A stretch of DNA of 64,000 nucleotides from the NCBI GenBank assembly GCA_022510385.1, contig JAFLTQ010000006.1, forward strand, positions 1 to 64,000, read 5' to 3'. The notes beneath the pieces were generated by a model. It was not told the DNA's origin and did not search any database. It saw nothing but the letters and a program-made list of their open reading frames with translations. Within the stretch, counting starts at the first letter, position 1, and each line of letters begins with the position of its first letter. The translations under genes and the position numbers were made by a program. This stretch comes from Muribaculaceae bacterium. GTDB taxonomy: Bacteria; Bacteroidota; Bacteroidia; Bacteroidales; Muribaculaceae. Positions 40,326 through 55,771 of this stretch are shown here, one piece after another.

Positions 40326-42943
40326 GAAGATATTTCGTTGCTTACTTTGTCGGGTTGATCATCCTGGGTTTTATCATAAACACCGGGATGAAAGCGTATG
40401 CCCAGGCACAAAGGAAGCAGGAAATAAAAGAGGAGGATACCTTCTCACGTCCGGAGCCTTCACGTCCGATACAACCGGAGTTGCCATCCACCAACCGTTA
40501 CCAGGAAGACAAGATATTTTTAGAGTATGCCGACAGTTTATACAAACAGACCCACAAACGAGACACAATAGAGAAACAGATCCTGAAAGGGAATGTAAAA
40601 TTCCGTCAGGCCGATATGTGGATGTATTGCGACTCGGCTTACTATTATCCCGAGGAGAATTCCCTGGATGCTTTCAGCAACGTCAGAATGGAACAGGGCG
40701 ATACATTGTTTGTATATGCCGACCAACTGTTCTACAATGGCGATACCCATCTTGCCAAGCTCAAAAACGGACCGACCCGAAGTAAGGTGACTCTTATCAA
40801 TAATGATGTAACCCTGACAACAGACAGCCTCGACTATGATATGAATATCGATTTGGGTTGGTATACACGCTGGGGTACGATTGATGATAAGGTAAACACT
40901 CTGACATCGTTATACGGAGAATATTCGCCGGCAACCAAAAGAGCTGAGTTTTTTACAGATGTGGAGCTTGTCAACAGTAAGGATGGTTTCGTCATGCTTA
41001 CCGACACGCTTTATTACAGCACGGAAACACATATTGCAGAAATAGAGAGCAGAACTATCATCCAGGGAGAGAATGATACAATCATAACCAACTTAGCCAC
41101 TTATTACACCGACAGCGGGAATGCCGACCTTTTGTCGCGTTCATTGATAATCCACAGGGATTCCACCGGGAATGTAACCACTCTTGAGGGGGACAGCATT
41201 ATTTACGACAATGCTACCCGGGTAAGCCGCGCTTATATGTTTCAAGACCCATTCAAGAGGAGCGCCCCCATGGTGATAACCGACACGGCACAAAAAACAA
41301 CTCTGATCGGAGGTTTTGGAATTTATAATGATTCCACAAAAGAGGCGCTTGCCACTATCTATCCCCTTTTGATGGAGTATTCTCAAAATGATACTATATT
41401 CCTTCGAGCCGACACCATAAAGACCTACATAGTCACCGAGATGGTGGCAGATAGAAGAAGGAAAACAAAATCGGGTTTCCCGGAACACATGGGTATTCCG
41501 ATAGTGATGCCCGATTCTGTGAACGGCGGCCTATGGATAGACACAACATTCTTTGCAGTGAAGATTCCTTATGTCGAAACTCCCCTTGTGATGCTTTTGA
41601 AAGAGGCACCTCCGGCTAAACCAAAGAATGAGGCGGCACAAATGGAAATTTCAACATTGGCGTCGGAACTGCATGAAAGTTTTCCGGCTGATTCTATTGG
41701 GGCATTGCAAAAGATAGCTGAGCTGGATTCAATAAATGTTGAAAGGAATCTTGCCGAACTCGATTCAACGGGAAGGGTAAAAAATCAGATTGGCGACTAT
41801 ATTTCAGAAGATTTTGAGAGAATGTCGCAAAGAGAAGATACAATTTCAGCTGATACTATCGCGATGGCTGAGGAGATATTGAGAGTTGACTCGATTCCGG
41901 TGGAACATCATGTGGCTCTTGCCTACCATCGTGCCCGATTCTTTAAGCAGGATATGCAGGGAGTTGCGGATTCCATGGTATTCTTGGAGAGGGATTCGAT
42001 TTTATATATGTTCCGGAAACCGATTATCTGGAGCGGGGAGAGACAGGTGACAGGTAATCGTATAGATGTGCATTTCAACGATTCCACCGCTGATTGGGCA
42101 CTCTTGCCTGAATTCGGCCTCATGTCGGAACACGTTGAAGAGGACTTTTATAATCAGATATTCGGCAAGGAATTGAAGGCCTATTTCGAGGGGAACGGTT
42201 TGAGAAGAATGGAGGTGAATGGAAATGTTGAAACGATCTTTTTACCGCAAGAGGAAGACTCCACTTATAACAGGCTGGTGAATGCAGAAAGTTCCTATCT
42301 TGATGCTTATTTAACTGATAATGAGCTCGACCGTTTGAAGATGTGGCCGGAAGTGAGTGGCACGGTAACGCCGCTTTTCCTTGTGAAACGAGCACAGATG
42401 TATCTTCAAAAATTCAAATGGTGGGGATTTTTGCGACCTGAAAGGGAATGGTATGGCGACCGTCTGCGATGGGCAGATAATCTTGGAGAGGTGCCCGAAG
42501 AATTAGAGCAATATTTTCTGTCTCCGTCAGATTTTGGAGAGCCTAAAAGTTTTACAGGCGCACGGTTTACACCGCCACCCACATCCCTTATTACATCGGC
42601 GGCTCTTCCGGATCTGATGTTGAATGATTCCATCGGAGCCCGTGGTGACAGCTTACAGGTTGTAAAGATTGAGGAATCGGAGACGTTGCCGGAGATAGAG
42701 TCGATGGAAAATGAAGAGCATACCGAGCTTATAGAAATGGAAGAAGAGGGGAAAGAGATCGAAGATGCAGTAGAGGATGCAGACGCGGGAGAATCAGGGT
42801 TGCAACAATCAGAGATTGCTGTTCCCGAGGAAGAAGAGGATGCAACGGAGGTAGTCGGCAATGATAGCGGAAATAATCAAGAGGAGGACGAGGAAGAATT
42901 GATAGAAATAACCGGCGAAGAAGAGGAGGTGACAGATGAGTGA
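40322..42943 (+). CDS. OstA/LptA-like LPS transport protein
   Basis: Bacteroidetes OstA-like protein, about 873 residues, presumably a periplasmic component of LPS export to the outer membrane. GTG at 40322 overlaps the surA stop (GTGA); a TTG at 40313 is the alternative. The N-terminal hydrophobic segment FVAYFVGLIILGFII anchors or exports it. From about 50 onward there are repeated short beta-strand blocks typical of the OstA/LptA jelly roll (FRQADMWMYCDSAYYYPEEN; GDTLFVYADQLFYNGDTHLA). The last 100 residues are strongly acidic, rich in Glu. It overlaps mutL by eight bases. Confidence 0.85.
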   Translation: MRRYFVAYFVGLIILGFIINTGMKAYAQAQRKQEIKEEDTFSRPEPSRPIQPELPSTNRYQEDKIFLEYADSLYKQTHKRDTIEKQILKGNVKFRQADMWMYCDSAYYYPEENSLDAFSNVRMEQGDTLFVYADQLFYNGDTHLAKLKNGPTRSKVTLINNDVTLTTDSLDYDMNIDLGWYTRWGTIDDKVNTLTSLYGEYSPATKRAEFFTDVELVNSKDGFVMLTDTLYYSTETHIAEIESRTIIQGENDTIITNLATYYTDSGNADLLSRSLIIHRDSTGNVTTLEGDSIIYDNATRVSRAYMFQDPFKRSAPMVITDTAQKTTLIGGFGIYNDSTKEALATIYPLLMEYSQNDTIFLRADTIKTYIVTEMVADRRRKTKSGFPEHMGIPIVMPDSVNGGLWIDTTFFAVKIPYVETPLVMLLKEAPPAKPKNEAAQMEISTLASELHESFPADSIGALQKIAELDSINVERNLAELDSTGRVKNQIGDYISEDFERMSQREDTISADTIAMAEEILRVDSIPVEHHVALAYHRARFFKQDMQGVADSMVFLERDSILYMFRKPIIWSGERQVTGNRIDVHFNDSTADWALLPEFGLMSEHVEEDFYNQIFGKELKAYFEGNGLRRMEVNGNVETIFLPQEEDSTYNRLVNAESSYLDAYLTDNELDRLKMWPEVSGTVTPLFLVKRAQMYLQKFKWWGFLRPEREWYGDRLRWADNLGEVPEELEQYFLSPSDFGEPKSFTGARFTPPPTSLITSAALPDLMLNDSIGARGDSLQVVKIEESETLPEIESMENEEHTELIEMEEEGKEIEDAVEDADAGESGLQQSEIAVPEEEEDATEVVGNDSGNNQEEDEEELIEITGEEEEVTDE

Positions 42944-44852
42944 TATAATAAGATTGTTGCCGGATTCCGTCGCCAACCAGATTGCCGCGGGAGAGGTGAT
43001 ACAGCGCCCGGCCTCCGTGATAAAGGAATTGGTGGAGAATTCAGTAGATGCGGGAGCCACCGATATAAGGATATTCATCAAGGATGCAGGAAGAACCCTC
43101 ATACAGGTGGTGGATAACGGTAAAGGGATGTCAGCAACAGATGCGCGGATGGCCTTTGAGCGTCATGCCACCTCTAAAATCAGCAGTGCAGCCGATTTGT
43201 TCACCCTCCATACGATGGGATTTCGCGGGGAAGCCTTGCCATCAATATGCGCAATATCGCAAATAGAGATGCGCACCAAGCCGGAAGGGGCTCAAATAGG
43301 TACCAGACTGATGATAAATGCCACAAAAGTTGAGACTCAGGAATCAGTGGCATGTGATAAGGGCACGAATATCATGGTGAAGAATCTCTTCTTCAATGTG
43401 CCGGCACGACGTAAGTTTCTGAAGAGCGATAACGTGGAGTTGTCGAACATCATGCGTGAATTTGAACGCCTTGCCCTGGTCAACAACAGTATCCGAATGA
43501 GCATAGACACCGGCACCCGGGTGATTGACTTAAAACCGGGAAGCTTTCATCAACGTATCGAGGATATCTGGAAGAATTCCCTGGATTTGCATCTCATTCC
43601 TATAGAAGTGGAGACTTCATTAATAAAGATATCGGGTTATATTTCTCGACCCGAATATGCCAGGAGGCGCAATCCGTTACAATATCTTATAGTCAACGGA
43701 CGAAACATGCGTCATCCCTATTTTCATAAGGCAATAGCGGGATGTTATGATTCTTTGATAGCCCCCGACACACAGCCTTGCTATTTCTTGAAATTCAAAG
43801 TGGATCCTGAAAGTATAGATGTCAATATCCACCCTACAAAGAATGAGATAAAATTTGAATATGAACAGGAGATCTGGCCCATCTTGCAGGCGGTAGTGAA
43901 ATCAGCCTTAGGCAAGTTTGGGGCAGTCCCTTCGATCGACTTCTCCATAGACCCGGTGCCTGTGGCTCCCAAACAGGGAGGAGAGACTCCGAAGCCTCCC
44001 ACTCTTGATATTCCGGGAGATTACAATCCTTTCTCAGGAACAAACTATGAAGGACCCCGATATCCGGGGACTCGGACCACAGAGGGCTTTAAAACCAATC
44101 GTCCGGGAAATCCGGCAGACATGGGGCGTAAGGTTCCTTCCAACTGGGAGTCGCTCTATTCGGAATTTATGAGAGGATCCCATGGATTCGGAGGTTTGCA
44201 GAGTATTAAGGAAGATAGGAAGGATTCCTCCGAAGATGGAATTATAGAAGAGTTTAAGGATTCATCTGTTCCGGTAAATATTTGTATCCAGTGGGGAGAC
44301 AGATTTATAGTCTCATCCACAAAGGATGGAATATTACTGATCGACCAGCGAAGGGCACATATAAAGATATTATATGAGGAGTTTCTGGCTCATATAAAAG
44401 GAGGGGATCATAGTTCGCAGGGGATTATGTTTCCGGATACTCTTGAGATAGATGCGAGCCAACAGGATGCTTTGGAAGAGATAATCCCGGAATTATATAA
44501 GATAGGGTTCAGAATTGAGTATGATAGTGACAACCGCTGGAGCATTACGGGGATTCCCTCCTATGCTACAAATCTTGATTCCAGAGATATTGTAATGCGG
44601 ATGATTGAGAGTATCGATGATTCCACCCGAAATTATGGTAAAGAGGAAAAATCGACAGATGCCTTGATGTCGAGGATAGCATTGGTGATGGCACGCAGCG
44701 GGGCTATCAATTACGGAAAAAGATTAACCCCGGAAGAGATGGAACATATCACTACCCGGTTATTTTCACTTCCCGATCCCTCATATACTCCGTCGGGACA
44801 TAAAATCTTCCACCTGCTGGATCAGACCTATCTAATTGGACTCTTTAAATGA
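42936..44852 (+). CDS. mutL: DNA mismatch repair protein MutL
   Basis: Couples MutS mismatch recognition to strand removal. It has 638 residues. The GHKL ATPase motifs are intact: ELVENSVDAGATDI, DNGKGM, and GFRGEALPSI. A conserved N-terminal region VNGRNMRHPYFHKAI and a C-terminal dimerisation domain follow. I did not find the DQHAx2Ex4E endonuclease motif; the aligned spot reads IDQRRAHIKILYEEF, so endonuclease activity is doubtful from this view. It overlaps the OstA-like gene by eight bases. Confidence 0.93.
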   Translation: MSDIIRLLPDSVANQIAAGEVIQRPASVIKELVENSVDAGATDIRIFIKDAGRTLIQVVDNGKGMSATDARMAFERHATSKISSAADLFTLHTMGFRGEALPSICAISQIEMRTKPEGAQIGTRLMINATKVETQESVACDKGTNIMVKNLFFNVPARRKFLKSDNVELSNIMREFERLALVNNSIRMSIDTGTRVIDLKPGSFHQRIEDIWKNSLDLHLIPIEVETSLIKISGYISRPEYARRRNPLQYLIVNGRNMRHPYFHKAIAGCYDSLIAPDTQPCYFLKFKVDPESIDVNIHPTKNEIKFEYEQEIWPILQAVVKSALGKFGAVPSIDFSIDPVPVAPKQGGETPKPPTLDIPGDYNPFSGTNYEGPRYPGTRTTEGFKTNRPGNPADMGRKVPSNWESLYSEFMRGSHGFGGLQSIKEDRKDSSEDGIIEEFKDSSVPVNICIQWGDRFIVSSTKDGILLIDQRRAHIKILYEEFLAHIKGGDHSSQGIMFPDTLEIDASQQDALEEIIPELYKIGFRIEYDSDNRWSITGIPSYATNLDSRDIVMRMIESIDDSTRNYGKEEKSTDALMSRIALVMARSGAINYGKRLTPEEMEHITTRLFSLPDPSYTPSGHKIFHLLDQTYLIGLFK

Positions 44853-44899
44853 TTGATAATTATTATTGTCGTTGATAACGATTTAAATATAAAAATGTT

Positions 44900-45400
44900 A
44901 TGAGAAAGATTTACACACTGACCATAGCACTCCTTGCATTTATGACCTTTCTTCCCTTGACATCCTGCAATGATGATGATGATGAAAAGGAAACCGTCGT
45001 GACCGAAGAATCATTGCCGGAAGCGGCAAAGGAATTTCTGACTAAATTTTTTCCGGATGATAAGGTAGTAAAAATAGAGGAAGAGAATGCCGGAGATATT
45101 ATAGTGTATGAAGTGTCGTTGGAAAGCGGTTTTGAAATAGTATTCAACTCCGAGGGAGAATGGCAACAGGTGGAGGCCCCCTACTATAAGACAGTGCCGA
45201 CGGGGATAATTCCGGAGCAGGTGATGAAGACCTTGTCGCAACAATATTCGAGCTATGGAATAAAGGAAATCAACACTGATGACCAAGGATGGAAGGTGGA
45301 ACTCAGCAATAATCTGACCAATGAACCGGGTGGTGCCGGTCTTAACTTATGGTTTAATTTTTCAGGAGAAATCACGTCAACATCTCAGGATAATGCCTAA
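44900..45400 (+). CDS. PepSY-like (DUF2874) lipoprotein
   Basis: A 166-residue lipoprotein. The signal ends in LPLTSC with Cys at about residue 23, followed by an acidic run (NDDDDEKE). Two repeats of the PepSY-like fold follow: LPEAAKEFLTKFFPDDKVVK with YEVSLESGFEIVFNSEGEW, then IPEQVMKTLSQQYSSYGIKE with WKVELSNNL. Each has the pattern 'lp..v...l...fp...i......yev.l..g..i.Fd..G.w' seen in Bacteroidetes PepSY-like proteins of unknown role. It is separated from the DUF4493 operon by a 222-base gap holding a promoter. Confidence 0.78.
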   Translation: MRKIYTLTIALLAFMTFLPLTSCNDDDDEKETVVTEESLPEAAKEFLTKFFPDDKVVKIEEENAGDIIVYEVSLESGFEIVFNSEGEWQQVEAPYYKTVPTGIIPEQVMKTLSQQYSSYGIKEINTDDQGWKVELSNNLTNEPGGAGLNLWFNFSGEITSTSQDNA

Positions 45401-45523
45401 AAAAGCGGAATAATCCATCAACAAATGTGGGAGAACAATTCATAAAGAAAAATAAAAAAGAGAGGGGAAATGGGTAATTCGAGCCTTTAAAATTGTTCTT
45501 TTTGGTACATTTTTAGGAGATAA

Positions 45524-45565
45524 GGGGCAAATTTTTGCCCCTTTATTGGTTTATTTGTAGTTTTG
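45524..45565 (+). promoter_or_regulatory. Promoter of DUF4493 operon with overlapping palindrome
   Basis: TTTG at 45534-45537, a 20-base spacer and TAGTTTTG at 45558-45565: an exact Bacteroidetes promoter. The -33 TTTG is inside a perfect inverted repeat, GGGGCAAA/TTTGCCCC (45524-45541, two-base centre). This could be a regulator site or, as an alternative, the terminator hairpin of the preceding PepSY-like gene. The predicted leader is about 50 bases. Confidence 0.7.
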
Positions 45566-45622
45566 TGCCGGAAAAGGCCTTCTGAATAAGGAGGAATAAT
45601 TTGCAATAATTAACCTGACATA

Positions 45623-48250
45623 ATGAAACTAAACAAAACGGTTTTCAGTGTGGGAATTCTGGCTCTTGCTCTTAGTTCTTGCACAAATGAAACGCCATGG
45701 GACACAGGAACCACCGGGGAAGGAAGCATAAAACTTCATCTGAGTTCATCTGTTGACTTGGAAAGTGAAATGCCATCCGTGAGAAGTGTTTCATCAGAAA
45801 TTATACCTCCGGCAGTGGAAGATTTCCAAATAAGAATGACTAACACTTCCGGCAGTTATGTAAAATCATGGAGTTCTATCGCCGAATTTGAGAAAGAGAC
45901 TGAATTTAGAGCTGACACATATCATTTGGAAGCGTTTTATGGCCATGAGGGCTCTCAAGGCATAGTGAGGGCCGGCGATAAGGGTCATGAACATTCCTAT
46001 TTCTATGGAAAGGCAGAAAATATAAAGATCGAACCCGGAAAGTCCACCGATGTGCAGATTCAGGCATCTCTGGGTAACTCTGTGGTGATAATCGAATATT
46101 CAGATGCCTTCAAAAATTATTTCAAGGATTGGTCTACCAAACTTATCACTAAAGGTGAATCATCGTTAGATCTAGGTAATGAAGAGGGTATGTGTTATGT
46201 AGTGCCCGGCGATGTGGATGTTGTGATTGAAGCAACACAGCAAAACGGAAAAAGCGTTAAGTTGAATCCGGCAATCTTTAAAGCCGAGTCACAACATTTG
46301 TATAAGATCAAATATAACGTCTACAATGGCGAGGTAGGTCATGCAGATAAACTACAGGTTATTTTCAATGATCAGCCGGATGCCGAACATACCATTGAAA
46401 TTGAATTAACCGATGATCTTTTATCGGGCGAGGGTCCGAAAATTACAACCGAAGGTTTCATCACTGAAGACATTATTGAAACTTTGTCCGGTTCTCCATA
46501 TGAAGGAGTAGTGAAATTTCATATTGACTCGCCCGACGGATTCAGTCAGGTTTTATTGAATATAAGTTCAAAAGAATACAATGCACAATTCCTTGATGAT
46601 GGATGGGTGGATTTGTGTCAGGCAGATGCCGATAAGCAGGCTGAACTGAGCAACGCAGGAATTAAAGTGTTAGGTCTATATGGTAGTCAAGAAAGAATGG
46701 CCCTTATAGACTTGACAGAGTTTTGTCGTTATTTGCCGGAAGGAGAACACAATGTAAGTCTGATAGTGAAGGATAGAGCCAGATTGGCAGAATCGTCGTT
46801 AAAATTTGTGACTTATCCTGTGGAAATCGATATGGTTCCGGAAGCTCCCTCCGTGTTTGGAAGACGCTATGCCGATATCCGCGTGGCTTATAACGGTGCT
46901 GACCCGACCGTGGCAGGAAACAATCCGTTTTCCTTCCAGGTAAACGGTGACACCGGAATGCATGAAGCTAAAATACTTGGTATAACAAAGGCAGAGACTA
47001 CCAGGGCATTTGATAGGGTTGATTATATCTACAGGATAGAAATGGGTGAAGCTTATTTCGATGAAATACCTGTGGATATCTATTATAATTCAGGAAATAT
47101 ACCTGTGGCCACTTCAAATATCAAGATAGAATATCCGGAATATGAAGTGGGTTATGACCCGATGGCCAAGCGTGTGATGATGCGTGTGGAAAGCGTGAAT
47201 GACCCGGAAGTGGATTTTAACAAAGGAGAAATCAAAAAAGCTTTCGCCGACAGATTGAGAGTGTTCGTGGATAATGCCGAGACCACCAATCTAACAAGAA
47301 ACGAAACCACATTTGTGGTGACCGCAAAGGGTCTTGCGGGCGGAGATACATTCAAAGTTAAGACCAGTCTTGCCGTTAATCCGGAAAACTATCCTTATTC
47401 AGAGGAGAAAACCTTAACTTATGAACCGGAATTGCCTGTGCCCAATGGAGACTTTTCGCAGACGGATCCTAAAAGAAGCATTTATATCAATCCAATCGAT
47501 GTGGGCGGGAAATATTGGGTCAGAGTTTTTGTTAGATCGGATCAGCAAATAACGTCAAGTATAGAAAGAGATGTACCCCTATACTGGGCTACATTAAATG
47601 ATTTGACATGTTTTGAGGGTTCCAAGAGAATGAATTCATGGTATCAAGAACCGTCAGCATTCATTGAGGGTAATGAAGTAGTGATCCGTTCGGTAGGATA
47701 TAATCATGATGGCAAGGAAATCCCGGAATCTGGAAGAGCAGCAAACACGACATATTATTGTGAAAATTATCCATCCGAAGAAGAACTTGAGAAATCAATT
47801 GGAGAACTATTTCTTGGGACTTATTCTTATAATGGAACTCCAAGCAGGAAAGAAGGAATAGAATTCAACAGCCGACCCTCGATTTTTACTTTTAATTATT
47901 CTTATTCTTCAATAAATAATGAGAAAGGAGTGGTTATACTAAGTCTATTTGATTCTGAAGACTTGATTATTTTCTCCACAACTCAAGAGATAGAAAATGG
48001 CAACGACGAGGGAAAAATAATGATTCCGGATTATGCATTTAACCGGAAAGTTGCTAAACTGGAAATAGGTTTTAAATCCGCAAATGTATCCGGTTCTCCC
48101 GCCATTATTATACCGACTGGAAATGATTTGGATGAAGGCTTCTCGGCAACGACTTATTTGGCTAACCGTCAAAAAGGAGCAAATGATTATCATGCTTTCG
48201 CTAAGGGCTCTGAATTAAGAGTTTCGAATCTAAAGTTTCAATATGATTAA
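45623..48250 (+). CDS. DUF4493 lipoprotein, large, fimbrillin-like N terminus
   Basis: An 875-residue surface lipoprotein, first gene of the six-gene exported locus. Lipobox LALSSC puts Cys at residue 20. A strand-like GSIKLHLSSSVDL follows, then SVR|S with Arg at 54. The N-terminal beta domain (about 60-270) has the pilin-like pattern FRADTYHLEAFYGHEG and QHLYKIKYNVYNG. A second module shared with the next two proteins (about 275-400) ends MALIDLTEFCRYLPEGEHN. Ig-like and Fn3-like regions follow, and a C-terminal jelly-roll-like region starts VPNGDFSQ near 612. The DUF4493 family label is from recognition; function is unknown. Confidence 0.78.
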   Translation: MKLNKTVFSVGILALALSSCTNETPWDTGTTGEGSIKLHLSSSVDLESEMPSVRSVSSEIIPPAVEDFQIRMTNTSGSYVKSWSSIAEFEKETEFRADTYHLEAFYGHEGSQGIVRAGDKGHEHSYFYGKAENIKIEPGKSTDVQIQASLGNSVVIIEYSDAFKNYFKDWSTKLITKGESSLDLGNEEGMCYVVPGDVDVVIEATQQNGKSVKLNPAIFKAESQHLYKIKYNVYNGEVGHADKLQVIFNDQPDAEHTIEIELTDDLLSGEGPKITTEGFITEDIIETLSGSPYEGVVKFHIDSPDGFSQVLLNISSKEYNAQFLDDGWVDLCQADADKQAELSNAGIKVLGLYGSQERMALIDLTEFCRYLPEGEHNVSLIVKDRARLAESSLKFVTYPVEIDMVPEAPSVFGRRYADIRVAYNGADPTVAGNNPFSFQVNGDTGMHEAKILGITKAETTRAFDRVDYIYRIEMGEAYFDEIPVDIYYNSGNIPVATSNIKIEYPEYEVGYDPMAKRVMMRVESVNDPEVDFNKGEIKKAFADRLRVFVDNAETTNLTRNETTFVVTAKGLAGGDTFKVKTSLAVNPENYPYSEEKTLTYEPELPVPNGDFSQTDPKRSIYINPIDVGGKYWVRVFVRSDQQITSSIERDVPLYWATLNDLTCFEGSKRMNSWYQEPSAFIEGNEVVIRSVGYNHDGKEIPESGRAANTTYYCENYPSEEELEKSIGELFLGTYSYNGTPSRKEGIEFNSRPSIFTFNYSYSSINNEKGVVILSLFDSEDLIIFSTTQEIENGNDEGKIMIPDYAFNRKVAKLEIGFKSANVSGSPAIIIPTGNDLDEGFSATTYLANRQKGANDYHAFAKGSELRVSNLKFQYD

Positions 48251-48272
48251 TTAAGAAGATACCAATTAGGTT

Positions 48273-49598
48273 ATGAAAACAATATATACCATTGCTTTAG
48301 GTTTTTTATTATCATTGGGCTTTCTCTCTTGTAACAAGGAAAAACCTTTCGAGGGAGAGTCAACCGAAGGAACAGGAAGATTCCTTACTTCAGCAATCAA
48401 TGTGGAAGTAAAGGCAGAGGAAGCTGTGACCCGAACTGCAGGGGTGCCGACACCCGATGAGTTCACCGTGGCATTCTGTAAAAAAGAAACCCTCAATGAG
48501 GCCCTCTATCAATACAATTACAAGGAAATGCCGGAAGTGGTGACACTTCCTGTTGGAGAATATATCGTTAAAGCTTTCTATGGAAATGATAATATAGTGG
48601 CAGCTTTCGATGCTCCGGCCTATTACGGTGAGTCCGAAATCCTCAAAGTGGAAAACGGGAAAGTGATAGATGTGGTTAATCCCATTGTCTGCACACTATA
48701 TAATGTGAGGGTAGCTGTTTATTTCGATCAAGCACTCAAAGAAGTGATGGGTGAGGATGTAAAAGTGGCCGTTAAGGTTGGAGAAAGCGGGGCACTTGAT
48801 TTCACCTCCGGGACTGAGTCAGACGGTTTCTTCAAATATGATGAAGACAGCAGCACTCTGTCGGCAGTATTCACGGGTACAGTTAACGGAGCTTACCTTA
48901 CAGAAACCAAGACCTATGACAAGATAAAACGAGGAACATACTATAAGCTCACATTCAAGCTTCATGGAGTGGAGACAGGAGCAGAGGAACCGGGCAGCAG
49001 CAGCGGCTCTTTGAAAATCGACGCAACGGTGACCTTCCACGATCAATCAGGCAACGGAGGATTGAACGTGGACCCTGACAGCGAGGAATATCTGGAAGAT
49101 GACCGTTATCCCGGCAACGGAGATACGGAAGATCCCGGAGAGCAACCGGGCCAACCCGTAGATCCCGACAATAAAACCCTCCCTTGGATGGAATCCGATG
49201 ACGTGGATATCAACACTGTGACAGATATTTCTGATTGGGAGGAAGGTAAAAGTTTGGCCGTGAAGATCCTTTCACCCTCTCTTCTTACAAAGTTTGTCTG
49301 CATAATAGATTCCTCCACCCTCACTCCTAAGGAATTGGAAAGTGTTAATCTAAAATCCGAACTGGATTTGATTAACGATACGGATTTATTCGACAATTTA
49401 GGTGGTTTGGGTTTCCCGGTGGGGGAGGATATCACTAATCCCAAGACTCAGGATGAAGATGGCAACTACATCATTGTATTCGATATCACAAAGTTTGTGA
49501 CAATGCTTAATGCATTGGGAGAAGGAACTCATAATTTCATTTTCAACCTTGAAAATGAAGCGGGCGAAAAAGTTTGTACCTTAAAACTTAAAAGCTGA
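48273..49598 (+). CDS. DUF4493 lipoprotein, short, fimbrillin-like N terminus
   Basis: A 441-residue lipoprotein. Cys is residue 20 in LGFLSCNKEK, followed by a TEG motif, a strand segment (FLTSAINVEVKAEE) and VTR|T with Arg at 54. The N-terminal domain contains LPVGEYIVKAFYGNDNIVAA and a second half ending GTYYKLTFKLHG and SLKIDATVTFHD, as in two-domain fimbrillins. An acidic Pro/Gly linker (about 275-300; GNGDTEDPGEQPGQPVDPD) leads to the module shared with its neighbours (about 310-441), which ends the protein. There is no PCMD domain. It starts 22 bases after the first gene. Confidence 0.78.
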   Translation: MKTIYTIALGFLLSLGFLSCNKEKPFEGESTEGTGRFLTSAINVEVKAEEAVTRTAGVPTPDEFTVAFCKKETLNEALYQYNYKEMPEVVTLPVGEYIVKAFYGNDNIVAAFDAPAYYGESEILKVENGKVIDVVNPIVCTLYNVRVAVYFDQALKEVMGEDVKVAVKVGESGALDFTSGTESDGFFKYDEDSSTLSAVFTGTVNGAYLTETKTYDKIKRGTYYKLTFKLHGVETGAEEPGSSSGSLKIDATVTFHDQSGNGGLNVDPDSEEYLEDDRYPGNGDTEDPGEQPGQPVDPDNKTLPWMESDDVDINTVTDISDWEEGKSLAVKILSPSLLTKFVCIIDSSTLTPKELESVNLKSELDLINDTDLFDNLGGLGFPVGEDITNPKTQDEDGNYIIVFDITKFVTMLNALGEGTHNFIFNLENEAGEKVCTLKLKS

Positions 49599-49609
49599 CA
49601 ACTAAGACT

Positions 49610-51823
49610 ATGGTAAGAAATAAAAATATAATTCTGAAAGGAATTATGGCTGTTTCGATAGTTGCAGCTCTTGGTTCCTGTGCGGTCGAGGAGCCATTTA
49701 ATAGTGACACCGAAGGTCAAGCTCTGGTGAAAATGAATTTATTGGTGAATTCCGAATTGACCAGGGCAGACTATAATCCGGCTGAAGACTGCCGACTCTA
49801 TATTTCCAACGATAAGGGAGTGCTTTTTAAATGGCAAGGTCTTCAAAACATACCTTCTCAAGGAGTCTATCTGCGCTATGGAGATTATCTTGCCCAAGCA
49901 TGGGCAGGAGATTCCATTCCCGCCTCGTTTGATACCAAATATTATAAGGGTGAAACTAATTTCACAGTTTCATCAAATCAGATAGCCACTCAGGTGACAG
50001 TGGTGTGTAAGATATCTAATGTAGTGGTGTCGGTGGATGCCTCTGATTTAGGGGAGGAAGTTGTGAAGACAGCTACCGTGGATGTGGAATCGTCCACCGG
50101 CAATTTGACGTTTGAAAATGCCACATTCTCACAGAAGGGTTATTTCATGCGAAATTACAACAAAGAGACTGAGTCATATGACGATGGATTGAAGTATACA
50201 TTAAAACTTACAGACATTGACGGAAAGGAAGTCATAAAGACCGGAAATATTGCTAACATACTCCCGGCACATGAATACTGTATTGTCTTGAAGCAGGATA
50301 AGGCCGAAGAGAACATTGGAGGTGCAGCAATCAAAATCGAGATAAGAGACTGGGAAGTGGAAGTAGATGATGAGTATATTATCCATGGTAAACCTGAATT
50401 CTCATATGAGAACAATAATCCCACGATTGATAAGCAAATATATGGGAAAAACGGGGAGTTTACCGACCAGACACTATTTATAGGAGCTTACAACGATTTC
50501 AAATCTGTGAAGATCACCACTGAAGATGAAACCGTGAAGAATTCTTTAGGCGGATATGGAGAAATTGATCTCCTTAATTCTTCTGATTTAGTAAAAAATA
50601 CTTTAAAAGAAAAAGGCTTTACAATCGAAGACGGATACACAGGCCGCTTCAGGCAATTCCGTATACATCTTTCATCGGGATGGTTGTCGAGTTTACCTGA
50701 TTCCGAAACCCAATATGTCTTGGATGTAACTGCCATGGACACAAGAGGGATGTCAAATTCCATGAAGATAAGAATTGCCAATAACGAAAAGGCGATGGAT
50801 GCTCCCTTTGCAATTGATGAAGATTATTGGAAAAAGAATCTGTTGGCCATACGTGCCTATTCTGCAGAATTGAAAATCAATCAGTATGAAGCCGTGAATG
50901 ATGTGGTGGTTCAATATCATGCGGAGGGAGAAACCGGGTGGAAATCCATTTCTTTAGGAAATAAGGCTACCGAAAGTTACACATATAAATTGACGGGTCT
51001 TGCCCAGAACACCGGTTATGAATGTAGGATTGTAGGCGGAACCCTTTCCGGTGATGTTTACCAATATGAATCGGAACCGGTGTCTTTCAAGACTGAAGAA
51101 GTGTTTGAAATACCAAATGCATCAATGGAGAATTGGTGGTTGAACGGTAAAGTGTGGATGCCAAACCAAGATTCCTATAACCAATACTGGGATTCCGGCA
51201 ATCATGGATCACAAACCCTTAGTGTAACTTTGACAAGTCAGTTCAAGGAATTCTATCATTCAAATGGTTCTTGTGCTAAACTTGAAAGTAAATTTGTCGC
51301 AGTTATTGGTACCTTAGGTAAATTAGGCTCCGGTAATATCTTTATAGGTAAATACGCCGGCACTGAGGGAACCAACGGAAAGATAGATTTCGGCAAAGAA
51401 TATAATGCCACCCATCCAAGCAAAGTGAAGGTATGGGTTAACTATCGCCCCGCAAAAGCGGTAAGTGGTAAAGGTTCTGACAATAAATATATTCCGGCTG
51501 GAGAGTTTGATAAGGGACAAATCTATATCGCGCTATCCGACCAAATTAAGAGTGTGAATACCGGAAACGAATCCACATTGGTGACGGAAGAAAAGGCACC
51601 CGAACTCTTCCTGGCTTACGGTCAGCAAACGTTTGAATCGGATTACGGAGAAGATGGCCAGCTTTTGGAAGTGGAAATTCCTTTCACGTATTTTGATAAG
51701 GCCAAAACCACTCCTACTAAATATTTGATCATAGTTTGTTGTGCATCCAAATATGGAGACTATTTCTCCGGAGGGGATGGTTCAGTGATGTATGTCGATG
51801 ATTTTGAGCTGATTTATGAATAA
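49610..51823 (+). CDS. DUF4493-PCMD lipoprotein
   Basis: A 737-residue lipoprotein. Cys is at residue 24 (AALGSC), then a TEG motif, strand ALVKMNLLVNSEL and TR|A with Arg at 52. The N-terminal pilin-like domain includes VYLRYGDYLAQAWAGD and HEYCIVLKQDKAE, with EIRDWEVEVDDEY. The shared module lies at about 285-385 and an Fn3-like segment at about 395-495. A C-terminal PCMD (putative carbohydrate metabolism domain, about 499-737) has IPNASMENWWLNGKVWMP, NQYWDSGNHGSQTL and YVDDFELIYE. It lies 11 bases after the second gene. This is the most complete member of the trio. Confidence 0.8.
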   Translation: MVRNKNIILKGIMAVSIVAALGSCAVEEPFNSDTEGQALVKMNLLVNSELTRADYNPAEDCRLYISNDKGVLFKWQGLQNIPSQGVYLRYGDYLAQAWAGDSIPASFDTKYYKGETNFTVSSNQIATQVTVVCKISNVVVSVDASDLGEEVVKTATVDVESSTGNLTFENATFSQKGYFMRNYNKETESYDDGLKYTLKLTDIDGKEVIKTGNIANILPAHEYCIVLKQDKAEENIGGAAIKIEIRDWEVEVDDEYIIHGKPEFSYENNNPTIDKQIYGKNGEFTDQTLFIGAYNDFKSVKITTEDETVKNSLGGYGEIDLLNSSDLVKNTLKEKGFTIEDGYTGRFRQFRIHLSSGWLSSLPDSETQYVLDVTAMDTRGMSNSMKIRIANNEKAMDAPFAIDEDYWKKNLLAIRAYSAELKINQYEAVNDVVVQYHAEGETGWKSISLGNKATESYTYKLTGLAQNTGYECRIVGGTLSGDVYQYESEPVSFKTEEVFEIPNASMENWWLNGKVWMPNQDSYNQYWDSGNHGSQTLSVTLTSQFKEFYHSNGSCAKLESKFVAVIGTLGKLGSGNIFIGKYAGTEGTNGKIDFGKEYNATHPSKVKVWVNYRPAKAVSGKGSDNKYIPAGEFDKGQIYIALSDQIKSVNTGNESTLVTEEKAPELFLAYGQQTFESDYGEDGQLLEVEIPFTYFDKAKTTPTKYLIIVCCASKYGDYFSGGDGSVMYVDDFELIYE

Positions 51824-51832
51824 GTGATTACT

Positions 51833-51864
51833 GAGTCGATTCTTATTGCTATAGGAATCGACTC
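51833..51864 (+). terminator. 3' hairpin after DUF4493-PCMD gene
   Basis: GAGTCGATTC pairs perfectly with GAATCGACTC around a 12-base loop, immediately after the gene at 49610-51823. No T-run follows (TAAATAATAG), so it is more likely an mRNA-stabilising or attenuating hairpin than a full terminator. It could set different dosage for the lipoproteins and the barrel proteins. Confidence 0.5.
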
Positions 51865-51905
51865 TAAATAATAGTCATATCTAACTAAATTCTAAAAGAA
51901 ACCCG

Positions 51906-53027
51906 ATGAAGGGCTTGAAATATATTTTGATTGTAGTAGTAGGGATGGCTTGGGCCCCGACCCGGGCCGAATCCAATCCGGAAGCGGATCCCGACTACAG
52001 GTATATTGTGAGGAAGAAGATTGATACATCCTTACAGCAAAAGAAGGATTCGATATCCGACATGATGTTTGAGAATCCTCCGCGCATTATGGATGTGCCA
52101 AATAAGGCTGAAAAGAAGGATTCGATATCCGACATGATGTTTGAGAATCCTCCTCGCATTATGGATGTGCCAAATAAGACTGAAAGGAAGGATTCGATAT
52201 CCGACATGATGTTTGAGAATCCTCCTCTTATTATGCCTGTTCCCGTCACAAATAAGGAAAATGTAATAGAAGCGCCCGAAGCACAGGAATGTAATCTCCC
52301 GGTAGTAAATAGGCCGGATACCGTGTATGTGGAAGCAAAACCGCAGTCTCATGAAATTGAAGAATTCCAGAGGGATATAGAGTCGGTTGTCTTTATTCCC
52401 AAAGGGTGCTGGATTTTTGGTCTTTCGGTGTCATACACTCAATCTTCGCAAGATAAATACCAGTTCCTGATTTTAGAAGGGATATCAGGAGACACCTACA
52501 GTTTCAAGGTTTCTCCGATGGCAATGTTTACTGTGAAAGCTGATTTAGGTTTGGGAGCACGATTCGCATACGCGAGAAATCTGACAAAGGTGGCTAACGC
52601 TGATATTGTTCTTGATGCGGAAACCGACTATTCATTCGACCATCTATATCGCCTGTCTCATAATTATTATGGGACAATTTTAATGAGGAACTATTTCTCA
52701 ATAGGTAAAAGCAAAAGATTTGGATTTTTCAATGAAGTCGGTTTGCAACTTGGAGGAGGTCAGAGTAAACTTACCACAGGAGTAGGAGAAGATTTGACCG
52801 GTACCTACGAGCACAATTTTTCTCTGAATGTGGGTTTGACGCCCGGTATCTGCATCTTTTTGAATAATTATTCCGCCTTGGAGGTCAACGTGGGGTTATT
52901 GGGGTTCAATTACAATAAGACAAAGGCGGTGAAAGACCAGATTTATGTATCCAACCGGAACTACCAGTCGGCTAATTTCCGGATAAATCTGTTTTCGATT
53001 ACTTTTGGAGCAACCTTTTATATATGA
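51906..53027 (+). CDS. Outer-membrane barrel protein with tandem repeats
   Basis: A 373-residue exported protein. The signal peptide is about 1-20 (IVVVGMAWAPTRA). The periplasmic N-terminal region (about 22-155) contains three near-identical 24-residue repeats (about 46-117; KKDSISDMMFENPPRIMDVP). From about 160 an 8-10-strand-like barrel follows, starting FIPKGCWIFGLSVSYTQSS and ending FSITFGATFYI. It is a paralogue of the next gene over the barrel region. The last bases overlap the next start (ATGA-type). A role as anchor or secretion channel for the neighbouring lipoproteins is inference. Confidence 0.72.
   Translation: MKGLKYILIVVVGMAWAPTRAESNPEADPDYRYIVRKKIDTSLQQKKDSISDMMFENPPRIMDVPNKAEKKDSISDMMFENPPRIMDVPNKTERKDSISDMMFENPPLIMPVPVTNKENVIEAPEAQECNLPVVNRPDTVYVEAKPQSHEIEEFQRDIESVVFIPKGCWIFGLSVSYTQSSQDKYQFLILEGISGDTYSFKVSPMAMFTVKADLGLGARFAYARNLTKVANADIVLDAETDYSFDHLYRLSHNYYGTILMRNYFSIGKSKRFGFFNEVGLQLGGGQSKLTTGVGEDLTGTYEHNFSLNVGLTPGICIFLNNYSALEVNVGLLGFNYNKTKAVKDQIYVSNRNYQSANFRINLFSITFGATFYI
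52041..52256 (+). repeat. Three tandem 72-bp in-frame repeats
   Basis: Three consecutive 72-base units (starting 52041, 52113 and 52185), nearly identical in DNA, encode KKDSISDMMFENPPRIMDVP plus four residues. The third copy diverges at its end. Being a multiple of three, the copy number can change without a frameshift. Confidence 0.92.
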
Positions 53028-54160
53028 TAGTCGCCATGAGGAAAAAGATAATAACAACAGTATCCCTCCTGGTGACCATCTTTATGGGAATGGCCCAAGA
53101 GATTCAAAGAGATAGGGCCGATCAGGAAATAGAATTTGGGAAAGAGAAGATATTACGTAGCGATACCATATATCGGAGCGATACTGTCTGTGTGAGGGAG
53201 GTGATAACAAGAACAGATGTTATCAACCGTACGGAACAGATAGTAAGATATTATGACAGCAAATTGCCGGCAGACACATTGTCAGAAAACAGATTGCTGT
53301 CTGAACCGGTGAGCCGCCCGGGTGGCAGCTATGTGTGGGTGCCTGACTCTATGGAAGGGAAAGTAGAGAAAGTGCTTCATGGGGCACCCCTTGAGGTTAT
53401 AACTACACTCTATGATGGGATTGATCTTAATGAAAAGGTTATATTTAGGGGTGACACCATCAATATGATCTTGAAAGATCGTAATTTAGGTAGATATGAC
53501 CGCGGCCTTTTTAACTTTTTGTTTATTCCAAAGGGGATATGGCAGGTTGGATTGACAGCCTCCTACGGAGAATTCTCAACAGCAAATCTCCAGATTCTTG
53601 ATTTAGTCTCTGATGTAGATTTCAGGGGTAAACTGTGGTCAATCAGGCCCTACTTCCAATATTTCTTAAAAAGTAATATATCTGTAGGTCTCCGATTGGG
53701 CTACACTGAGGGTAAGGCCAGCATCGGAGCATTCAACGTAGATATCGATGAGGATATGAGTTTCAACCTCCATGATATTCTCTATAAAAGTAACAGTTAT
53801 TCAGCTGCGGTGACTTTCTCACAATATCTCGGAATAGCACGCAAGGGAAGATTCGGAGTGTTTAATGAGGTCGAGCTGGCATTGTCGGGAGGAAATTCAG
53901 ATTTCCATCGTCCTTTCAATGGTGAATTGCGGAAAACGCATACCGACACTTTCCAGGCAGCATTGAATTTCTCGCCGGGAGTCTGTGTCTTTGTGCTCGA
54001 CCAAGTGTCGTTTAACGTATCGCTTGGAGTTTTCGGTTTGAATGTGAAACATGAGAAACAGAAAGTGGATGGCGAAGAATTGGGATGGCGCACAACTTCG
54101 GGAGCCAATTTCCGATTCAATATCTTTAATATCAATTTCGGTATAGCCGTAAATATCTGA
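53024..54160 (+). CDS. Outer-membrane barrel protein, paralogue of previous
   Basis: A 378-residue exported protein. The ATG at 53024 overlaps the previous gene by four bases; an ATG at 53036 (MRKKIITTVSLLVTIFMGMAQ) gives a cleaner signal peptide and may be the true start. The periplasmic N-terminal region (about 25-165) is rich in SDTIY/SDTVC-type repeats. The barrel part starts FIPKGIWQVGLTASYGEFS and ends FNIFNINFGIAVNI, matching the previous protein position by position. It has no 24-residue repeats. Function unknown. Confidence 0.72.
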   Translation: MIVAMRKKIITTVSLLVTIFMGMAQEIQRDRADQEIEFGKEKILRSDTIYRSDTVCVREVITRTDVINRTEQIVRYYDSKLPADTLSENRLLSEPVSRPGGSYVWVPDSMEGKVEKVLHGAPLEVITTLYDGIDLNEKVIFRGDTINMILKDRNLGRYDRGLFNFLFIPKGIWQVGLTASYGEFSTANLQILDLVSDVDFRGKLWSIRPYFQYFLKSNISVGLRLGYTEGKASIGAFNVDIDEDMSFNLHDILYKSNSYSAAVTFSQYLGIARKGRFGVFNEVELALSGGNSDFHRPFNGELRKTHTDTFQAALNFSPGVCVFVLDQVSFNVSLGVFGLNVKHEKQKVDGEELGWRTTSGANFRFNIFNINFGIAVNI

Positions 54161-54199
54161 TTAAAAGAGGAGTTCTCCGCTTAATAAAAAAAGGGAAAG

Positions 54200-55771
54200 A
54201 TGAGGCAATCATTATATATATTAATTTTCACAAGTTTGATGTTATTGGCAGGTTGTATAAAGAATGATTTGCCATATCCAAAAATTCAACAGAATATCAC
54301 AATTCTAATTCCGGTGGGAGAGAGGAGCGCTACTCTGATCGACTCCGTCTCGTTAACGGCAACAGTTTATCTCACAGAGGATGTTGATATATATAATGTT
54401 TCATTTTCAGATTATCAGACTACTCCTGGAGCGGAGTCAGATCCGGACTTATCCGAAGGCAGCTACAATTTATCCCGTCCGATTATTGTGAATCTAAGCC
54501 TATATCAGACTTATCAATGGCTTGTAAAGGCTGAACAGCCGATAGAGAGATATTTTGCTGTTGAAGGAGAGATAGGGGAGTCAACTGTTGACGCTGTAGG
54601 TAAAAGGGTTATTCTCCAAGTGCCATTTTCAGCAGATATAACCTCACTGAAAGTAACGGCCATAAAACTTGGGCCGGCCGGTCATACTGTCATGACCCCG
54701 GATATTATTGAAGGATACAGTTATGATTTCAGTAGTCCGGTTGACATAGAAGTGACATCATGGGGGAGATCTGAAGCCTGGACAATATATGTTGAGAGGG
54801 TGGAACAGAGCGTGAGCACTGACAATGTTGAGGCCTGGAGTCAGGTAGTGTGGGCATACGGAAGCTGTGAGGCTGACAAAAACGGCTCTTTCCAATACAA
54901 GCTCTCCACCTCAGAGGAATGGCTTGATATAGACCCGGCGTGGCTGACACAAACCGGAGGGGCAATCTCTTGTTATATCCCGCATCTCCAACCGCTCACA
55001 TCGTATGACATAAGGGCTTATTCGGAAGGAGAATATGCTAATGTGATAACTGTTACTACAGAGGATACCATGGTTCTCCCAGACGGCTCTTTTGATCAAT
55101 GGTGGCTGAAGGATAACAAGATATGGTGTCCGTGGGATGAAGGTGGTACTCCATATTGGGATACCGGAAACACCGGTGCAGCAACATTGGGACAAAGCAA
55201 CGTAGTGCCCACCGACCATACGGTGACCGGCCAGGGACGTGCCGCAGAATTGAATACAAAATTCGTGGGTCTTTTCGGTATCGGCAAGTTGGGAGCGGGG
55301 TCAATCTATACCGGTAGTTTTGCCAAGGTTGATGGCACCAACGGTATTTTGGATTTCGGGCGTCCCTTCACACTGCGTCCCACTAAATTGAAGGGTTATT
55401 ATCAGTATAAGACCGCCACTATCGACTACACCAATTCCGAATGGTCGGATCTTAAAGGGCGACCGGACACGTGCCATATCTACATAGCGCTGACAGATTG
55501 GACAGCACCTTATCAAATCCGCACAAATCCCAACAATCGTCAGTTGTTCAATAAGGATGCCGATTATGTCATAGCCTACGGAGAGTTGCTTTACAGCGGC
55601 ACCATGGACGATTATGCGCCGTTTGAGATAGAATTGCAATATCGTGATTATTTCACTACGCCAACTTATCTCCAGATCACGTGTGCCGCCTCAAAATATG
55701 GAGACTTTTTCACCGGGGCAAATGGAGCGACTCTCTATGTTGACGAGTTCTCGCTCGATTATGACTATTAG
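54200..55771 (+). CDS. PCMD-domain lipoprotein
   Basis: A 523-residue lipoprotein, last gene of the locus. The lipobox LLAGC puts Cys near residue 19. The N-terminal half (about 30-290) has two or three beta-sandwich regions, the last Fn3-like (about 215-290). The C-terminal PCMD domain (about 292-523) starts LPDGSFDQWWLKDNKIWCP, includes YWDTGNTGAATLG and ends ATLYVDEFSLDYDY, closely parallel to the end of the DUF4493-PCMD protein. It has no DUF4493 module and no obvious TEG-strand-Arg opening, so it may act as an adhesin tip or anchor. That role is inference. Confidence 0.78.
   Translation: MRQSLYILIFTSLMLLAGCIKNDLPYPKIQQNITILIPVGERSATLIDSVSLTATVYLTEDVDIYNVSFSDYQTTPGAESDPDLSEGSYNLSRPIIVNLSLYQTYQWLVKAEQPIERYFAVEGEIGESTVDAVGKRVILQVPFSADITSLKVTAIKLGPAGHTVMTPDIIEGYSYDFSSPVDIEVTSWGRSEAWTIYVERVEQSVSTDNVEAWSQVVWAYGSCEADKNGSFQYKLSTSEEWLDIDPAWLTQTGGAISCYIPHLQPLTSYDIRAYSEGEYANVITVTTEDTMVLPDGSFDQWWLKDNKIWCPWDEGGTPYWDTGNTGAATLGQSNVVPTDHTVTGQGRAAELNTKFVGLFGIGKLGAGSIYTGSFAKVDGTNGILDFGRPFTLRPTKLKGYYQYKTATIDYTNSEWSDLKGRPDTCHIYIALTDWTAPYQIRTNPNNRQLFNKDADYVIAYGELLYSGTMDDYAPFEIELQYRDYFTTPTYLQITCAASKYGDFFTGANGATLYVDEFSLDYDY

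Follow-up and report, generated by a model that had tools for sequence, protein, structure and literature searches.

Six consecutive genes in a 64,000-nucleotide stretch of a Muribaculaceae bacterium genome (GenBank assembly GCA_022510385.1, contig JAFLTQ010000006.1, positions 1 to 64,000; hereafter the window) may encode an adhesive surface appendage that belongs to the fimbrillin (type V pilin) structural class and brings its own base in the outer membrane, a reading to which we give an even chance. The first three genes (D1, D2 and D3) encode DUF4493 lipoproteins, genes 4 and 5 (B1 and B2) encode barrel proteins and gene 6 (P6) encodes a PCMD lipoprotein. An earlier note on this DNA, made from the letters alone, had proposed a pilus-like system, and its core idea survives, since the predicted fold of D2, the DUF4493 protein that was modelled, is that of the fimbrillins and the DUF4493, barrel and PCMD genes co-occur, even when they are not adjacent. 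We do not class the set as a canonical type V pilus; it looks like an undescribed cousin of those pili. DUF4493, PCMD and the barrels are linked as one system in 33 of 393 sampled genomes of the order, and the reading offers a testable role for DUF4493, for PCMD and for a barrel family that has no Pfam name of its own.

Re-derivation of the open reading frames (ORFs) of the window gave six ORFs, all on the plus strand and spaced by 22, 11, 82, −4 and 39 bases, which reproduced the frames, the sizes (875, 441 and 737 residues for the trio), the gaps and the 4-base overlap of the earlier note. Its statement that all six products are exported also stood: D1, D2, D3 and P6 have lipoprotein signals, and B1 and B2 have N-termini that, judged by eye, resemble signal peptides without a lipobox. 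A Pfam scan placed DUF4493 in D1, D2 and D3, and PCMD (PF13201) in P6 (1.2e-44) plus the C-terminus of D3 (1.9e-33). The PCMD of P6 had been assigned before, but the second one, in D3, had been missed, as had a 72-bp tandem repeat in B1 and a stem-loop in the 82-base gap (Table 1). The C-terminal region of D1 is tied to PCMD through a shared profile, and the window D1 does not reach the Pfam PCMD model. B1 and B2 matched no Pfam family at E ≤1, and none of the six proteins matched an NCBIfam model at E ≤1. A search of the genome found three DUF4493 genes, those of D1–D3, and, on a different contig, one more PCMD match.

The AlphaFold2 model of D2 gave the DUF4493 part (residues ~31–260) a two-domain fimbrillin fold, and its structural matches were Mfa3, FimA and Mfa2, with both domains aligned over about 190–210 residues, and also Mfa1. 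The pilin part is followed by a low-confidence linker and then by an Ig-like domain. DUF4493 is hence predicted to be a fimbrillin fold, by the model for D2 and by membership of the same Pfam family for D1 and D3. None of the three proteins had a sequence match to the fimbrillin Pfam families, and the D2 alignment profile gave no PDB match at E ≤10, so the link to pilins rests on fold.

Conservation was followed in two sets, the 393 genomes of the order and the best 80 loci of at least 532 relatives of the D3 alignment in named genomes; kinship makes the members of either set non-independent and the second is not a random sample. DUF4493 was present in 44 of the 393 genomes, and neighbourhoods were fetched for 40 of the 43 genomes other than ours. 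All six genes kept the gene order of the window in 12 of the 40, and eight more had a one-barrel form, in some of which the D1-type gene lay elsewhere or was lacking; ten had a stand-alone DUF4493 gene (about 385–425 aa) with no barrels or PCMD beside it. Among the best 80 loci, D1-D2-D3 were contiguous in 69 and the full six-gene run was seen in 33. Gaps of at most 100 bases separated D1 from D2 in 68 of 69 cases and D2 from D3 in 75 of 76, and in some loci the barrels lay before D1, were divergent or fell outside the locus.

Barrels and DUF4493 also kept company at the level of whole genomes. The B1 profile matched 41 of the 393 genomes at E 1e-3, a threshold at which 34 had both families, seven barrels only, ten DUF4493 only and 342 neither; at E 1e-40 the corresponding counts were 33, 1, 11 and 348. 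The 33 genomes with strong barrels are all those with operon-type DUF4493 genes and the other 11 mostly have the lone (solo) type, a split that is our own, partly neighbourhood-based and so partly circular, with G383 (five DUF4493 matches and one barrel match of 1.8e-25 beside a PCMD gene) placed in the solo group. The sole barrels-only genome at 1e-40 (G461; L173, C24) has a B-B-P6 run without the DUF4493 part of D3, the absence of DUF4493 being either a loss or an assembly gap. That genome is given as 99% complete, and DUF4493 clusters are present in two further genomes that carry its genus label.

In the genomes of the best 80 loci a barrel lay within the fetched locus in 45 and outside it in all of the remaining 35 (33/33 plus 2/2), and the idea that trio-only loci mark barrel-less genomes was rejected. 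Seventeen of 33 trio-only loci were free of barrels for at least 3.8 kb on both sides; contig ends explain some others, and in L131 a barrel fragment begins behind D3 at the contig end. Stand-alone barrel loci were fetched for 20 of the 33, and P6 followed the two barrels in 19; the other (L182) has no labelled P6 and its contig ends there. As the trio and the barrel/P6 genes co-occur even when apart, we regard them as two co-inherited halves. The six-gene locus of the earlier note stands as to order and gaps, but the stem-loop divides genes 1–3 from genes 4–6. That stem-loop, and the fact that the halves can lie apart, are what could be said for chance neighbours or several unrelated transcription units, an explanation already contradicted by the tight conserved spacing and the co-occurrence and one that we consider highly improbable.

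The association reaches beyond the order. In the record of plasmid p1 of Flammeovirga kamogawensis (NCBI class Cytophagia), three DUF4493 genes are followed by a gene for a 259-aa hypothetical protein that matches the barrel profile (1.1e-87) and then by a PCMD gene; a PCMD domain is also present in the products of the first and third DUF4493 genes. The version found in Parabacteroides distasonis combines a single barrel with five DUF4493 genes.

The lipobox cysteine is well kept in the trio, by a simple rule in 70 of 71 D1, 77 of 77 D2 and 80 of 80 D3 proteins and by a stricter pattern in 58 of 70, 72 of 76 and 62 of 79. When 100 DUF4493 domains, taken from the window, from one third of the 80 loci and from the solo genes, were placed in a tree, all 28 D3 rows fell into one group (support 100/99) and 28 of 29 D2 rows into another (100/99). 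The 27 D1 rows grouped, with one mislabelled row, at weaker support (87/88); L164_D2_6278, which had been classed as D2, fell with D1, and the 13 solo rows had little support as a single group (46/69). Since D1, D2 and D3 each group apart, they are old separate lineages and not recent copies.

Behind the lipid cysteine each member of the trio has a candidate processing site (Table 1). Its D2 column holds Arg in 75 of 76 aligned proteins and Lys in the remaining one, and is the only column between 36 and 63 of that alignment to reach 70%; the D3 column holds Arg in 78 of 79 and Met in the other. In D1 the column is not conserved (Arg in 20 of 70 aligned proteins), though x-R-[ASTGV] occurs in the site region of 54 of 70; four other stretches, taken for comparison, had the motif in 3 to 21 of 70. 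In the D2 model the Arg lies between the first strands and the body, in a lower-confidence block. Three accounts of type V pili (PMC5954841; PMC7616799; PMC11316588) describe the pilin precursors as lipoproteins cut by the Arg-gingipain, with Mfa1 cut at Arg49, and the N-terminal strand of FimA as covering a groove that later accepts a partner strand. By analogy the conserved Arg of D2 and D3, ~30 residues past the lipid Cys, would mark about the position of FimA/Mfa1 cleavage. The genome encodes clostripain-type (C11) and gingipain-type (C25, a 1142-aa frame) proteases and hence a processing enzyme is possible; the C25 frame may be the type IX sortase. By eye, several solo DUF4493 types have Lys-Ser at the site. 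In the P. distasonis locus L203 (4025-13516), also by eye, Lys occupies the site in four of the five DUF4493 proteins, Arg being the residue of most relatives, and this might track a change of protease.

This Arg bears on a somewhat unlikely alternative, a non-polymerising adhesin complex in which D1–D3 would remain lipid-anchored or barrel-bound, with the fold as a stalk only, and the barrels and P6 would form a fixed glycan-receptor-like complex. Its near invariance in an otherwise variable D2/D3 loop is hard to explain without processing. For such a complex speak the Ig-like end of D2 and the PCMD end of D3, the small eight-stranded barrel modelled for B2, the Ca-site residues kept in PCMD, the fimbrillin fold of the anchor protein Mfa2 and the lack of an evident shaft gene. 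The last point leaves the appendage reading without an account of filament formation, since no shaft gene is evident among the six. The earlier idea that the trio are the structural subunits of a pilus stays conjectural: each window protein has domains beyond its pilin part and the genome has no fourth DUF4493 gene. Some relatives do have DUF4493-only genes of about 225–285 aa; proteins of ~610 aa are encoded upstream of such small genes in loci L058 and L065.

A shaft could also be encoded elsewhere, D1–D3 then forming a tip set that caps Mfa/FimA-type filaments, with the barrels as incidental helpers. The adhesin-like C-terminal domains suit a tip, and Mfa_like_1 is matched three times in the genome: twice on contig C21 (once above the cut-off) and once, below the cut-off, on the contig of the window but outside it. 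However, the co-occurrence found is with barrels, and we think a tip set improbable. Compared with type V pili (FimA-E and Mfa1-5 of Porphyromonas and other Bacteroidales), the window set shares lipoprotein precursors, the two-domain fimbrillin fold (by the D2 model), a basic residue ~30 positions after the lipid Cys and several different subunits per operon. It differs in the lack of sequence matches to fimbrillin families, in the extra C-terminal domain of each trio member, in having no evident shaft gene and in the barrel family that accompanies the trio in all of the genomes of the best 80 loci. For P. gingivalis, PMC5954841 states that there are no apparent ushers or chaperones.

B1 and B2 are paralogues, as had been claimed: iterated profiles started from each gathered 42 proteins, and the union was also 42. 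The B2 model has eight long strands in an OmpA-like barrel that extends to the C-terminus; its best structural matches were OmpA, OprF and NspA, with OmpW lower in the list. That B1 is likewise an outer-membrane barrel is suggested by its paralogy to B2 and by weak OMP_b-brl matches in 7 of 46 B1 relatives. The PDB hits of the B2 profile, SP15 (E 0.012) and two nitrate reductase entries, were judged to be chance. An outer-membrane platform, as earlier proposed, agrees with the B2 model, but an eight-stranded barrel is too small to serve as an usher-like pore. Compared with OmpA/OmpW/OmpX-type barrels, with which B2 shares its predicted eight strands, the B2 extension is N-terminal rather than C-terminal and a P6-type lipoprotein usually adjoins; no C-terminal peptidoglycan-binding OmpA domain was found in B1 or B2 (Pfam, E ≤1; the B2 barrel runs to the C-terminus). 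The tandem repeat of B1 codes for a 24-residue repeat in its N-terminal extension, and many homologues are ~245 aa long with a much shorter N-terminus. In G471, a genome without a DUF4493 match, one barrel (E 2.8e-18) adjoins a PCMD lipoprotein. In loci L172 and L174 a single barrel gene adjoins a PCMD lipoprotein, with no DUF4493 beside, an arrangement that is perhaps the older form of the base module.

Barrels of the BT1926 type are, by description, likewise small eight-stranded Bacteroidota barrels. According to PMC12228718, they have been modelled as radial oligomers, and a member of the family has been linked to adhesion. No family named BT1926 came up when alignment members (46 of B1 and 43 of B2) were scanned against NCBIfam, and assignment of the window set to the BT1926/BT1927 S-layer type of B. 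thetaiotaomicron was dropped for want of sequence support.

D3 and P6 match structures of the PCMD/BT2081 family (PDB 3hbz, 4het, 4jrl and 3s30), and P6 has a conserved I-x-N-D-[LI]-P-Y-P behind its lipid Cys. Of the Ca-site residues of BT2081, Asp351, mapped on the structure alignments, is Asp in 80 of 80 D3 and 42 of 43 P6 proteins; Glu122, which lies beyond those alignments and was mapped by conserved context only, is an acid almost throughout (E 78, D 1 and N 1 of 80 D3; D 31 and E 12 of 43 P6). Asp338 is Asp in 80 of 80 D3 and 43 of 43 P6. The Asp259 position is Gln in the window D3 and His in the window P6, and across relatives Gln or Ile in most D3 and His in most P6 proteins; Asp is not among the five most frequent residues, which together account for 73 of 80 D3 and 39 of 43 P6. 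The two-carboxylate glycoside hydrolase pair proposed for BT2081 (Asp259 and Asp338) is thus not found in D3 or P6. Because the Ca-site residues are kept and Asp259 is mostly lost, these sequences favour binding over hydrolysis. The adhesive PCMD ends that the earlier note inferred gain partial support from this and from the presence of PCMD on both D3 and P6.

The same domain raises the alternative of a polysaccharide-utilization accessory locus in which PCMD proteins and barrels capture and import a glycan, as proposed for BT2081. According to PMC2954218, BT2081 and several paralogues lie within polysaccharide-utilization loci of B. thetaiotaomicron, and it is their structures that D3 and P6 match. 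In contrast, the window PCMD domains are fused to DUF4493 (D3) or stand beside barrels (P6); Pfam found no SusC, SusD or enzyme domain in the six proteins, flanking gene families recur in at most 19 of the 80 loci, Asp259 is mostly replaced and DUF4493 is fimbrillin-like by model. We consider such a locus improbable.

In the appendage reading, D1, D2 and D3 are exported as lipoproteins, as their sequence signals show, each with a predicted N-terminal two-domain fimbrillin module (D2 by model; D1 and D3 by family). A surface protease would then cut the loop that follows the first strand, on the far side of the conserved Arg, and this cut would free the module from its lipid and open the groove, as Rgp does in FimA/Mfa1. 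The three subunits could then join mutually, or onto a shaft encoded elsewhere, by strand exchange and so present their C-terminal Ig-like and PCMD-type domains. B1, B2 and P6 may be the base that anchors the structure in the outer membrane, as the B2 model and the co-occurrence suggest, and the PCMD jelly rolls, with the Ca-site kept and one proposed catalytic acid lost, would bind glycan rather than cut it. Gene set, conservation, predicted D2 fold and conserved Arg are the directly established parts.

More tentatively, and on balance doubtfully, the set could represent a class of its own among fimbrillin-based appendages, so far undescribed as a system: a fixed hetero-trio of pilins that bear adhesins and lack a repeating shaft, matured by an Arg/Lys protease, seated on two eight-stranded barrels and a PCMD lipoprotein, and spread beyond one Bacteroidota class. 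DUF4493, PF14900, PF13201 and the PCMD domain by name had no mention in the one literature collection searched. If the appendage mechanism set out above holds, fimbrillin-type assembly would extend beyond the FimA/Mfa plan and may have a dedicated outer-membrane base, which would bear on glycan and surface attachment by gut and other Bacteroidota.

Upstream of D1 the exact Bacteroidota-type promoter of the earlier note is present, but the match is weak alone, since the pattern has five matches in the window vs 1.35 expected and 2 of 100 shuffles reached five. Its −7 box, TAnnTTTG, is found within 250 nt upstream of 57 of 66 D1 homologues vs ~9% of random pieces, and is rarer before the other genes (first barrel 12/45, D3 14/79, D2 3/76, P6 4/44); the exact full promoter precedes 11 of 66 D1 homologues. 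The palindrome overlapping the −33 element could be an operator or the end of the upstream unit. Where the D3-B1 gap is at least 40 nt, 11 of 17 relatives have a perfect stem of at least 7 bp, a raw count without a shuffle baseline. We read the stem-loop as a point that would allow different expression levels of the two halves.

Table 1 Features of the six-gene locus (window coordinates)
Feature	Position	Strand	Description
Palindrome	45522..45543	+	perfect 9-bp stem AAGGGGCAA/TTGCCCCTT, 4-base loop; overlaps −33 element
Bacteroidota-type promoter	45534..45565	+	TTTG-N20-TAGTTTTG, exact match upstream of D1
D1	45623..48250	+	lipoprotein, 875 aa; DUF4493, middle region, C-terminal region tied to PCMD via shared profile
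Arg54 codon of D1	45782..45784	+	candidate processing site, 34 residues after Cys20
D2	48273..49598	+	lipoprotein, 441 aa; DUF4493 (fimbrillin-like by model), disordered linker, Ig-like domain
Arg54 codon of D2	48432..48434	+	candidate processing site, 34 residues after Cys20
D3	49610..51823	+	lipoprotein, 737 aa; DUF4493, middle region (weak Fn3 match), PCMD
Arg52 codon of D3	49763..49765	+	candidate processing site, 28 residues after Cys24
PCMD domain of D3	51125..51814	+	E 9.7e-35
Stem-loop	51833..51864	+	10-bp perfect stem, in 82-base gap between D3 and B1
B1	51906..53027	+	probable exported outer-membrane barrel protein, 373 aa; paralogue of B2
Tandem repeat	52039..52235	+	72 bp, in frame, 2.7 copies, 96% matches; B1 N-terminal extension
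B2	53024..54160	+	exported, 378 aa; predicted (model) eight-stranded OmpA-like barrel, extended at the N-terminus
P6	54200..55771	+	lipoprotein, 523 aa; N-terminal region (P6N), PCMD
PCMD domain of P6	55088-55756	+	profile match

Upstream of the cassette the window carries mutL and a PepSY-like gene (42936-45400). Genes named by eye as mutL-like and PepSY-like also precede the cassette in four relatives (L087, L098, L122 and L123), in three of which the barrel genes lie before D1 and not after D3; with the same flank and shifted barrels, module order changes at apparently one chromosomal site. The P. distasonis record of L203 (NZ_OY725756.1) is labelled a plasmid, but as metG adjoins its DUF4493 operon it may be part of a chromosome. 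A pattern search for D2 relatives among viral contigs gave seven matches, none of them a relative.

A DUF4923 lipocalin-like gene, absent from the window, lies in 19 of the 80 trio loci (L089, L096, L154 and others). Stand-alone barrel loci have it too, 1 of 7 in one set and 4 of 20 in another (L170, L187, L190, L195 and L199); it may be a further partner of the cassette. In L191, L198 and L201 a PCMD protein of about 820–840 aa without DUF4493 precedes the stand-alone barrels.
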